Shown in pieces: positions 17,666-20,295 of a stretch of 22,922 bases of DNA (position 1 is its first letter; each line of letters begins with the position of its first letter). The DNA lies in IMG/VR virus record IMGVR_UViG_3300040801_006048, positions 1 to 22,922 of that record, one strand, 5' to 3'. This DNA comes from a virus. Position numbers and translations under genes: made by a program. The notes under the pieces are model-generated. The model ran no database searches. It saw only the letters and a program-made list of their open reading frames with translations, and was not told where the DNA came from.

Positions 17666-17830
17666 TTAATTTGGGTAACTTTTCTGCCAAATCGCGATTT
17701 TTTTACAATAATTTTCCAGCCTGGCCTTATTTCTGAATAATCGGTAGTTTTTGCACTGTTTTTTCATGCAATAGTTGAATACTTTTCCGGTCTTAATTTC
17801 CTCCCCCTTTCTGATACAGTAAAAAATCAT
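17666..17830 (-). CDS. Small four-cysteine protein (54 aa)
   Basis: A 54-residue reading frame starts with ATG at 17830 and overlaps the methyltransferase stop as ATGA, ending TAA at 17666-17668. The protein begins MIFYCIRKGEEIKTGKVFN, continues YCMKKQCKNYRLF and ends NYCKKIAIWQKSYPN. Cysteines are at 5, 21, 26 and 42, an arrangement that could hold one zinc. It is basic and soluble. I do not know the family. The coupled start and position between methyltransferase and terminase genes support a real gene; a small zinc-binding DNA or protein adaptor is a guess. Confidence 0.7.
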   Translation of the reverse strand: MIFYCIRKGEEIKTGKVFNYCMKKQCKNYRLFRNKARLENYCKKIAIWQKSYPN

Positions 17831-19065
17831 AATTTCTTTGCTTTTCTAGATGTATGTTCCTCCCAGCGTTTGATGATGACATCAATATACTTTGGGTCCA
17901 GTTCCATGCTGTAGCATTTTCTCTCCATTTGCTCGCAAGCCATTAATGTTGACCCTGATCCGCCAAACAGATCAATTACTATATCACCCCGCTCGCTGTT
18001 TTTCTTTAAAGCCCGCTCCGGCAAACGCAAAGGTTTTTGTGTCGGATGAAGATAATTTTGTGTCACGTCCCTTCTTTCGTACCAGACATCCATTAATTCA
18101 CTAAAATCATCATAGTCAAGATGAAATACATCTTTTAAATTATTTATTTTTTTATTTTTAAAATGGCTTTTTTTCTTTTTCCAACCCACCATGCACGGCT
18201 CATACTGCCGGTGATAATCCTGTCCCCGGCTGAACACCATTGAATTTTTAAGCCAGATTATAATTTGACTCATGTGCCAACCTCCCAGCTCAAATGCTTC
18301 CCGGTTAATCCAGTTGTTTTTATTGGCAAACCACCAGTAAATCGTTACATCATCAGTCGTATAATCAAATAAATTCTTTAAAATATCAGTATAAAACTCC
18401 AAGCACTCTTTATTGGTTTTTTTGTCGTTAAATATCTTCCCGCCGCTTCCTCCGTATTTCTTTGAATCATAATCAAGTCCACCCGGGGATTTATAGTCAA
18501 CATTATATGGCGGATCCGTAAATATCATTCTTCCCTTTTTACTTCCCATTAATTTCTCTACGTCTTCCGCTTTAGCTGAATCACCACACATCAGGCGATG
18601 TTCTCCCAGCGCATATATATCTCCCAGCTTTGCTTTTGGCTTTTTGATTTTCTTATATTCCTCCTCGGCATCAAATTCGTCCTCTTCTATCTCAGCTATT
18701 AAATCTTTATCAAAACCGGTCAGTTCCAAAATATCCTCGTCTAATTCTTTTAATTCCTCAATAACCAGCTCCATCTCCCAATCACTCTCATTGAGCTTAT
18801 TATCCGCCAAACGATAAGCCTTAGCCTTTTTGGGCGGGAGGTTAACCGTAATGCAAGGCACGACTTTTAATTTAAGCATTTTGGCGGCTTCAAATCTCCC
18901 ATGCCCAACGATGATCACTTTTTTCTTGTCCAGTACTAAAGGCTGGTTAAAACCAAACTCCCTGATGCTGTCCGCAATTTGCCTGATCTGTTTTTGCGGA
19001 TGTTTTTTAGCATTTTTAGGATACGGCTTAATTTCTTCGATTTTTATTTCCTCCTTTTTTGCCAT
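17827..19065 (-). CDS. ParB-like domain/adenine DNA methyltransferase fusion
   Basis: A 412-residue protein that probably methylates adenine N6 in phage DNA. Residues 1-125 are a ParB/sulfiredoxin-like domain (IKIEEIKPYPKNAKKHPQKQ, then IIVGHGRFEAAKMLKLK at 51-67). Residues 145-405 are the methylase: FTDPPYNVDY with DPPY at 184-187, HPTQKP at 340-345 and DLFGGSGSTLMACEQ at 365-379 (SAM site). The DPPY motif precedes the SAM motif, the beta-class order. This fusion is common in phages. No restriction partner is visible, so it is probably an orphan for protection or regulation. ParB-domain function here is inferred. It overlaps the upstream gene by 38 bases. Confidence 0.92.
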   Translation of the reverse strand: MAKKEEIKIEEIKPYPKNAKKHPQKQIRQIADSIREFGFNQPLVLDKKKVIIVGHGRFEAAKMLKLKVVPCITVNLPPKKAKAYRLADNKLNESDWEMELVIEELKELDEDILELTGFDKDLIAEIEEDEFDAEEEYKKIKKPKAKLGDIYALGEHRLMCGDSAKAEDVEKLMGSKKGRMIFTDPPYNVDYKSPGGLDYDSKKYGGSGGKIFNDKKTNKECLEFYTDILKNLFDYTTDDVTIYWWFANKNNWINREAFELGGWHMSQIIIWLKNSMVFSRGQDYHRQYEPCMVGWKKKKSHFKNKKINNLKDVFHLDYDDFSELMDVWYERRDVTQNYLHPTQKPLRLPERALKKNSERGDIVIDLFGGSGSTLMACEQMERKCYSMELDPKYIDVIIKRWEEHTSRKAKKL

Positions 19066-19441
19066 GGTTTTCGGTGTTAATGATATAAATATCTTTAATC
19101 GCTTTTTTATTGAACTTGCCGGACTTCAGGATTTTGCTATACGCTTTTTCCAGCTTACTGATAATTTCTTCAATTTTTTTCTTATATTCTTTGATATCTT
19201 CAAAGTTGCCTACTTTCATGCCCTGTAGGCTCCGGAGCATCGGATCTTTTGGCACTTTAATATGCCGGTTAATATTTGCCCTTTCGCCTTTGCCGTCCTG
19301 ATAGCAGATAAATACAGGCAAAGCGCCAACAATGAAAAATTGTGGTTCTTTGGTCAAAATACCGCTCTTAGTCTGAAAGCTGTGGTTAAAATCAATTTTC
19401 AGATAAAGATTGTTTTGAATTTTAGTTTTTAAATTATTCAT
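19028..19441 (-). CDS. Hypothetical phage protein
   Basis: A 137-residue protein. The N-terminal half is beta-rich (LYLKIDFNHSFQTKSG, QFFIVGALPVFICYQDGKGE); the C-terminal half is a long charged helix (EDIKEYKKKIEEIISKLEKA) ending in a glycine/lysine tail. No motif is recognised. It lies between the replication initiator and the methyltransferase and overlaps the latter by 38 bases, so it belongs to the same early/DNA-handling operon. The reading frame is likely real because of this overlap and its length; the function is unknown. Confidence 0.6.
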   Translation of the reverse strand: MNNLKTKIQNNLYLKIDFNHSFQTKSGILTKEPQFFIVGALPVFICYQDGKGERANINRHIKVPKDPMLRSLQGMKVGNFEDIKEYKKKIEEIISKLEKAYSKILKSGKFNKKAIKDIYIINTENHGKKGGNKNRRN

Positions 19442-19461: not shown

Positions 19462-20154
19462 CTAAAAAAATTTTTTAAAGCCTGCTTCCTTGGCCAATCC
19501 CATGGCACAAGCCCCTTTGTTTTTTGCGGTAGTGCTTTCTCCTACGTCAATTAATATCTCAATAGTTTTCTGAAATCCGATTTGCTTTATAACTTTGAGC
19601 CAAACTTTTAAATTTTTGTGATCATTGATTTTCTCCAGCTGATACTCTAATTGTCCTCTCTGGGTATCTGATAACGAGTTATCCACATTTTGAAAATCAA
19701 CGTTAACGTTGGATTTAGTATTATGATTATTAGTATTATGATTGTGTTCGGTTTGCCGAACGGTTGAGGGGGTTTTGCGTTCGTTTTGGCGAACAGAACT
19801 GTTCGTTTTAACGAACGGTGGGGACAAGTCGTTCGATTTAACGAACAGTTCATCCACCTTGCCTGTCATCTTGATATACAGCTTATTGCCCTCCCGCCAG
19901 GTCAGAATATATCCGGCTTCAGCTATTTTTTTTACTCTTTCCGATACCCGGCTTTTAGCTTTAATCCTGAGTAATGGCATCTCCTCCAGAAGATAACTGA
20001 AATTAACCCAGGTAAACCCGTTTTTGCGATGTTTTTCCACCTTTTCACTCCTTGATGAACAGAGGTAATATAAATAATCAAGAATAGCCCCGTCTACAAT
20101 ATCCAACGAGGTTTTAGCTAAGGCTATTTGATTGATGTTTATATTGTATTTCAT
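19462..20154 (-). CDS. Putative phage replication initiator (winged helix), containing an intragenic origin
   Basis: A 230-residue protein from the ATG at 20154 (MKYNININQIALAKTSLDIV). The frame stays open upstream to a GTG at 20253, but that would run through a structured region, so I prefer the ATG. Residues 47-97 look like a winged helix (WVNFSYLLEEMPLL, SRVSERVKKIAEAGYI, then the wing EGNKLYIKM). Residues 105-165 are a polar linker. Residues 166-230 form a helical end (LEKINDHKNLKVWLKVIKQI). The linker DNA holds four iterons, as the lambda O gene holds the lambda origin. The protein would bind those iterons and start replication. Function is inferred from context and layout. Confidence 0.7.
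   Translation of the reverse strand: MKYNININQIALAKTSLDIVDGAILDYLYYLCSSRSEKVEKHRKNGFTWVNFSYLLEEMPLLRIKAKSRVSERVKKIAEAGYILTWREGNKLYIKMTGKVDELFVKSNDLSPPFVKTNSSVRQNERKTPSTVRQTEHNHNTNNHNTKSNVNVDFQNVDNSLSDTQRGQLEYQLEKINDHKNLKVWLKVIKQIGFQKTIEILIDVGESTTAKNKGACAMGLAKEAGFKKFF
19698..19711. repeat. Perfect 14-bp palindrome in initiator gene
   Basis: CAACGTTAACGTTG reads the same on both strands. It lies just outside the AT-rich repeat and iterons of the proposed origin, in the initiator coding sequence. It could be a further protein-binding site. Confidence 0.6.
19715..19743. other. AT-rich direct repeat, candidate DNA-unwinding element
   Basis: TTAGTATTATGATT occurs at 19715-19728 and again at 19730-19743 (15-base period), almost free of G and C, and ends three bases before the first iteron. 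In lambda and other iteron origins an AT-rich repeat of this kind next to the iterons is where the strands open. The protein it encodes is a low-complexity asparagine/histidine stretch. Confidence 0.65.
19746..19846. other. Four palindromic iterons: candidate phage replication origin
   Basis: Four 16-bp palindromic units share GTTCG-NTTTNN-CGAAC: 19746-19761 (centre GTTTGC), 19779-19794 (TTTTGG), 19801-19816 (TTTTAA) and 19831-19846 (ATTTAA). All ten arm bases are identical in every copy. Start-to-start distances are 33, 22 and 30 bases, near whole helical turns. Units 1-2 and units 3-4 fall in different reading frames, so the conservation is at DNA level and not protein level. Position inside the putative initiator gene parallels the four iterons in lambda gene O. 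Confidence 0.8.
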
Positions 20155-20179: not shown

Positions 20180-20264
20180 CTTATAGGCTTATGAAACAAG
20201 AGGTGGATCCAGTCGAAACCAAATCCCCGGGCTATACCGACCTCTCGTCTCACAAGGCTATAAG
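20180..20264 (-). promoter_or_regulatory. Long imperfect hairpin upstream of initiator
   Basis: Arms 20180-20204 and 20240-20264 are 25 bases each and complementary except at four positions. In the minus-strand transcript three of those become G.U pairs, leaving one true mismatch. The loop is about 35 bases. It lies 26 bases upstream of the preferred initiator ATG. The second arm also takes part in a separate perfect 9-bp hairpin (20251-20271), so the two folds exclude each other. Confidence 0.6.
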
Positions 20265-20271
20265 CCTTGTG
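20251..20271. promoter_or_regulatory. Perfect 9-bp hairpin competing with the long stem
   Basis: CACAAGGCT (20251-20259), loop ATA, AGCCTTGTG (20263-20271). All pairs are perfect on both strands. It shares bases 20251-20264 with the right arm of the longer hairpin, giving an either/or switch-like layout upstream of the initiator. Confidence 0.65.
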
Positions 20272-20295
20272 TTTTGCAAATACGTCTTTGCAAAA
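20272..20295. promoter_or_regulatory. 24-bp palindrome, candidate operator
   Basis: Arms TTTTGCAAA (20272-20280) and TTTGCAAAA (20287-20295) are exact reverse complements. The six-base centre TACGTC is palindromic except for its outer pair. It directly abuts the 9-bp hairpin, in the gap upstream of the initiator. It resembles a dimeric repressor site, but no repressor is visible in this window. Confidence 0.55.

Follow-up and report, generated by a model that had tools for sequence, protein, structure and literature searches.

Four copies of one palindromic motif lie in the middle of a protein-coding gene on the minus strand of the window (the complete 22,922-bp stretch of viral DNA that was analysed). 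This raises the question of whether the copies reflect selection on the encoded peptide or on the DNA itself, and which function the DNA would serve in the latter case. The repeats inside the coding sequence are interpreted here as putative binding sites of the encoded protein. The segment very probably represents a lambda-type phage replication origin that lies inside its own initiator gene, the phage being a temperate one that infects Patescibacteria.

Predicted protein and constrained DNA

The initiator gene (19462..20154; this and the following features are on the minus strand unless stated otherwise) begins with an ATG at 20154, which is also the alignment start of the relatives, ends with a stop codon at 19462 and encodes 230 residues. 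In an AlphaFold2 model built from a 20-sequence alignment, the winged helix ends at residue 105 and is connected through a linker to a C-terminal domain made of helices. The predicted winged-helix DNA-binding domain (codons 1–105, 19840..20154) has pLDDT values of mostly 80–90 and includes the predicted recognition helix (residues 67–79, 19918–19956). Linker residues 106–159 have a pLDDT below 50 and are predicted to be disordered. The C-terminal domain (residues 163–223, 19486..19668) comprises helices 163–175, 179–192, 194–205 and 213–223 and is presumed to recruit the host helicase or its loader.

Searches of Pfam and NCBIfam with the window protein matched no named family, and the initiator family apparently is without a model in either collection. 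The sequence search against solved structures gave nothing useful. Foldseek aligned the winged-helix domain with MarR/ArsR-type winged helices of the PDB, which are weak and generic matches (E 0.06–0.3); among the matches to viral models are replication initiators, replisome organizers and DnaD. Membership in the DnaD-like or RepA_N families was rejected for lack of a Pfam match, the likeness to DnaD and replisome organizers being confined to the fold level. A tblastn search with the N-terminal part gave replication proteins as matches, among them proteins of Campylobacter phages that are annotated as RepO-like (E 3e-4). In PHROGs, phrog_270 ('replication initiation protein') is matched by six of 20 family members (best 8e-21), and other members match related initiation or primosomal families.

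The iteron pattern GTTCG-N6-CGAAC has four exact matches in the entire contig: iteron 1 (GTTCGTTAAATCGAAC, 19831..19846), iteron 2 (GTTCGTTAAAACGAAC, 19801..19816), iteron 3 (GTTCGCCAAAACGAAC, 19779..19794) and iteron 4 (GTTCGGCAAACCGAAC, 19746..19761). The start-to-start spacing is 33, 22 and 30 bases. Next to the array is an AT-rich tract (19712..19745, 82% A+T), the presumed unwinding element, which holds both copies of a 14-base direct repeat (19715–19728 and 19730–19743). The tract is followed by a 14-bp palindrome (CAACGTTAACGTTG, 19698..19711), whose core AACGTTAACGTT is retained in the window, L005–L011, L038, L041, L047 and L048. The least stable 40-mer of the initiator gene starts at 19704 and reaches the 99th percentile of the contig. 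The AT-rich tract and many relatives also contain TAATACTAATAAT-like triplets, a superficial likeness to DnaA-trios that is confounded by Asn/Thr codon periodicity. On the 5' side of the gene, two neighbouring inverted repeats (CACAAGGC..GCCTTGTG and TTTTGCAAA..TTTGCAAAA) are present at 20251–20295; a version of the former is found in L005–L007. These may correspond to a terminator, an operator or an attenuator.

Most elements had been located in a preliminary description of this DNA. The four sites with identical GTTCG/CGAAC arms were found within the span and at the spacing given there, and the AT-rich direct repeat and the palindrome are indeed part of the initiator coding sequence. The units had been called fully palindromic, which is incorrect: none is perfect over 16 bp, and only the 5-bp outer arms are perfect and common to all, with partly symmetric centres (arms 5–7 bp). 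The spacing, described as near whole helical turns, corresponds to 3.14, 2.10 and 2.86 turns, so that this wording holds loosely. The proposed span (19698–19846) contains the elements, but the constrained DNA is wider (~19681–19851), and a DnaA box at its edge had been missed.

The constraint was assessed by aligning the codons of ten close relatives, the window among them. Synonymous identity is 0.49 in the winged-helix part, where codon usage predicts 0.42, and amounts to 0.80 in the iterons, 0.97 in the AT-rich tract and 0.98 in the palindrome; 3' of the origin block it drops to 0.58. When synonymous codons were shuffled with the protein held fixed, the four iteron copies were regenerated in none of 1000 shuffles. 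The iteron offsets from the ATG are 308 and 338 (remainder 2) and 360 and 393 (remainder 0). The repeats thus fall in two reading frames and, as had been claimed, it is the DNA that is conserved. To judge from the synonymous sites, the ~170 bp of the origin block (codons 102–158, 19681..19851) is selected as DNA. Since the linker of low pLDDT coincides with this block, the origin DNA would encode a disordered, sequence-tolerant linker, which explains how an origin can be accommodated within a gene.

The classical DnaA box TTATCCACA (19679..19687, plus strand) at the edge of the constrained block is the sole exact copy in the contig. Within codons 90–165, an exact DnaA box is present in 9 of 28 family genes, compared with 0.53 expected from synonymous shuffles. 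It occupies five different positions near the iterons across five lineages, a pattern that speaks against the coding sequence simply having been inherited. The gene dnaA is present in the Patescibacteria genomes that hold relatives. In the host dnaA regions the tandem exact DnaA-box pattern was not found; only sparse boxes occur there, and the role of DnaA is for this reason put forward as a hypothesis. The box at the block edge suggests that host DnaA assists the origin.

Relatives, neighbouring genes and host

Relatives of the N-terminal domain were gathered from 18 IMG/VR loci, 4 genome loci, further Patescibacteria genomes and isolated phages. Prophages of Patescibacteria are among them, as are isolated phages that infect Campylobacter, Elizabethkingia and Pseudomonas. 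Most have 16-bp palindrome repeats at codons ~100–150 with differing arms: GTTCG in L005, L035, L038 and L047, GTTCA in L012, L039 and L040, and three copies with GACAA in L022. The 'replication protein' gene of phiAH14a carries five copies with TCGGA arms and the family gene of the Elizabethkingia phage two with CTAAA arms (each 0/1000 in synonymous shuffles); the 'RepO-like' gene of Campylobacter DA10 has two with AGGTA arms (37/1000). The arrays are degenerate in L009, L041 and L147, and an exact palindrome array was not found in the family members L021, L145 and L146. Loss of the repeats from related phages that keep the protein had been named in the preliminary description as evidence against its proposal; most relatives keep the repeats, and those without them are few and divergent.

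The C-terminal domains vary widely among relatives, the module having been swapped. In L173–L183, which share only the C-terminal module with L035 and served as a negative control, no iteron array was found; the iterons therefore appear to travel with the winged-helix domain. The L035 module itself (FWxxYPxK...WLNQERWQDE) is joined to many unrelated N-terminal domains in these phage replication-like proteins.

An unbiased scan of IMG/VR for paired palindromes returned 92 stretches (20 GTTCG and 72 GTTCA), which were sorted by eye into initiator-like or not. Because only a minority lies within winged-helix initiator-like genes (L066, L068, L058, L063, L070, L090, L114, L121, L014, L122, L093/L096 and L135), the palindrome motif alone is not diagnostic. 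The winged-helix genes of L070, L058, L063, L093 and L096 have GTTCG or GTTCA palindrome pairs mid-gene and, by eye, are outside the initiator family, some being lambda-O-like at the N terminus. This suggests that similar iterons are used independently in these five loci.

A comparison of protein and repeats links the iteron class (G or A at base 5) to the winged helix. Residue 68 is Ser with GTTCG arms and mostly Gly with GTTCA arms. By association with iteron class, the best six of 104 winged-helix positions are 68, 52, 69, 57, 72 and 71, all of which are inside the predicted HTH helices 52–58 and 67–79. L090 is an exception. The class switches only three times on the tree and the sign test is not significant, hence the association is not statistically independent evidence. 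It is suggestive of an iteron base that tracks the recognition-helix residues and lends indirect support to the putative binding of the iterons by the protein.

Adjacent to the initiator gene on its downstream side is a gene for 137 residues of no named family (19028..19441, minus strand); a similar gene adjoins the initiator in close relatives. It occupies the position where lambda has P. The minus strand of the contig further encodes portal, protease, capsid, terminase and a ParB_N-methyltransferase fusion. In the latter (17827–19065), a ParB N-terminal domain is fused to an N6/N4 DNA methyltransferase. Both the ParB part of this protein and the C-terminal domain of the initiator are matched by phrog_7405, so the initiator-type C-terminal module seems to be fused elsewhere to a ParB-like domain. 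In L020 the gene after the initiator encodes a DnaB helicase (1e-42), and in L035 it encodes an IstB/DnaC-type AAA+ ATPase (loader), with Prim-Pol further on. The GC skew of the window, a partial contig, shows no clear sign of an origin.

The winged helix of L038, from a Paceibacterota MAG, is 69% identical to that of the window. The L038 contig has rpoA, rpsD, alaS and mur/fts genes beside the prophage and also encodes a tyrosine recombinase, and L047 adjoins ftsZ/ftsA in a Patescibacteria genome; the flanking genes of both were named by eye from the sequence. The two prophages have the gene order of the window. Thus, the window most likely derives from a temperate phage of Patescibacteria.

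Proposed function and alternative readings

The anatomy of the locus and the example of lambda, from which binding, stoichiometry, melting and recruitment are deduced, suggest the following course of initiation. The winged-helix domain (residues 1–105) would bind the 16-bp palindromic iterons, one dimer per iteron being the most likely stoichiometry. With all four iterons occupied, a nucleoprotein complex would form and put strain on the AT-rich tract beside it until this opens. Recruitment of the host replicative helicase, either directly or via a loader, would then fall to the C-terminal domain, and host DnaA may assist from the box at the block edge.

The repeats might instead result from selection on the protein, as a side effect of a repetitive linker peptide (FVKxN, VRQxE). 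FVKSN/FVKTN and VRQNE/VRQTE do recur in the linker; however, one DNA motif is read in two frames and yields two different peptides, other relatives have quite different peptides (e.g. SLPDNNSCQEPDNN in L022) and the linker is predicted to be disordered. As the shuffles fail to restore the four copies and the synonymous sites are constrained, protein-driven repeats are rejected, and the probability left to them is close to nil. Similarly, arms of 5–7 bp with centres of 2–6 nt are able to form RNA hairpins, which could act on attenuation or mRNA stability. Among 24 near-perfect family arms with one non-Watson-Crick pair, on the other hand, G-U wobble never occurs (about four expected at random by our estimate), and the AT-rich tract is equally constrained with no evident hairpin role. 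A function of the palindromes as mRNA hairpins is thus highly improbable.

MarR/ArsR-like winged helices bind palindromic operators, and the Foldseek likeness to them, although weak, leads to a reading in which the protein is a regulator that shuts off its own gene by roadblock or autorepression and no origin is involved. The many other paired GTTCA palindromes outside recognisable initiator genes in the unbiased scan are also in line with operators. Nevertheless, the array is positioned 300–400 bp into the gene, always in the linker and with AT-rich DNA next to it. Furthermore, helicase, loader and Prim-Pol genes adjoin in two relatives, and relatives match replication-initiation PHROGs. Operators without an origin are therefore very unlikely, and autoregulation and origin function could also be combined in the same sites.

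The preferred reading, an origin within the initiator gene, can be extended to a hybrid origin of Patescibacteria phages in which the iteron array and the DnaA box act jointly, host DnaA is needed and a code relates residues 68–69 to iteron base 5. This combined proposal is tentative and appears somewhat doubtful. The origin reading itself predicts a phage origin for Patescibacteria, a large, mostly uncultured group of tiny bacteria. A self-contained gene of 0.7 kb that serves as both initiator and origin would be a candidate vector part. Additionally, natural members of the family show joint changes in the initiator domain and its presumed sites, so that a specificity code becomes open to testing.

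Comparison with known replication origins

By sequence, the RepO-like proteins of Campylobacter DA10/PC22/PC11 (tblastn E 3e-4, HMM E 2e-15) and the replication protein of Pseudomonas phage phiAH14a (tblastn E 0.1, HMM E 2e-6) are related to the window protein in their N-terminal parts. DA10 and phiAH14a likewise have 16-bp palindromes in the linker. These phages differ from the window in iteron arms, hosts and C-terminal parts, and their functions are given by annotation.

The replisome organizers of the lactococcal P335 phages Tuc2009 (Rep2009) and TP901-1 (ORF13) bind repeats in their own gene, which constitute the origin region, according to a statement in PMC8965321 that cites McGrath 1999 and Ostergaard 2001. 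The repeats are described there as direct, unlike those of the window, and the systems are likened by layout only. In staphylococcal pSK41 RepA_N plasmids, four Rep boxes are located mid-rep, and the linker specified by the origin DNA is dispensable; Rep has a winged-HTH N-terminal domain, and its C-terminal domain contacts DnaG primase (PMC5703833). An origin inside the initiator gene and origin DNA that codes for a dispensable linker, both predicted here for the window, are thus found in pSK41 as well. In contrast to the window, pSK41 is a plasmid, and the window protein has no RepA_N match in Pfam.

The lambda-like origin proposed in the preliminary description is well supported by the recurring arrays, the synonymous constraint, the disordered linker and the helicase or loader neighbours; it does not extend to the lambda O family by sequence. 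The window protein matches neither PF04492 (Phage_rep_O) nor TIGR01610, models that lambda O as positive control matches at 6e-36 and 5e-39, and hhalign of the initiator profile (A1) against lambda O found nothing. The arms differ, the spacing is 20–24 in lambda and 22–33 in the window, and the window has an adjoining DnaA box and no recognisable P gene. Palindromic units had been regarded as a further difference from lambda. This difference disappears: in lambda, too, each iteron is an inverted repeat, and O binds there as a dimer (PMC5043065, PMC7466680). Iteron 1 of lambda contains TCCCTCAAAACGAGGGA, and the lambda iteron centre CAAAACG is close to CAAAAC in some window copies. The annotated lambda iterons are at codons 116–143 of O, the same place as the array of the window. 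In both, four inverted-repeat iterons are located mid-gene in linker-coding DNA and are followed by an AT-rich tract (PMC5043065, PMC7466680). The arrangement of an origin in the initiator gene has itself long been known from lambda, and the window very probably provides a new example.
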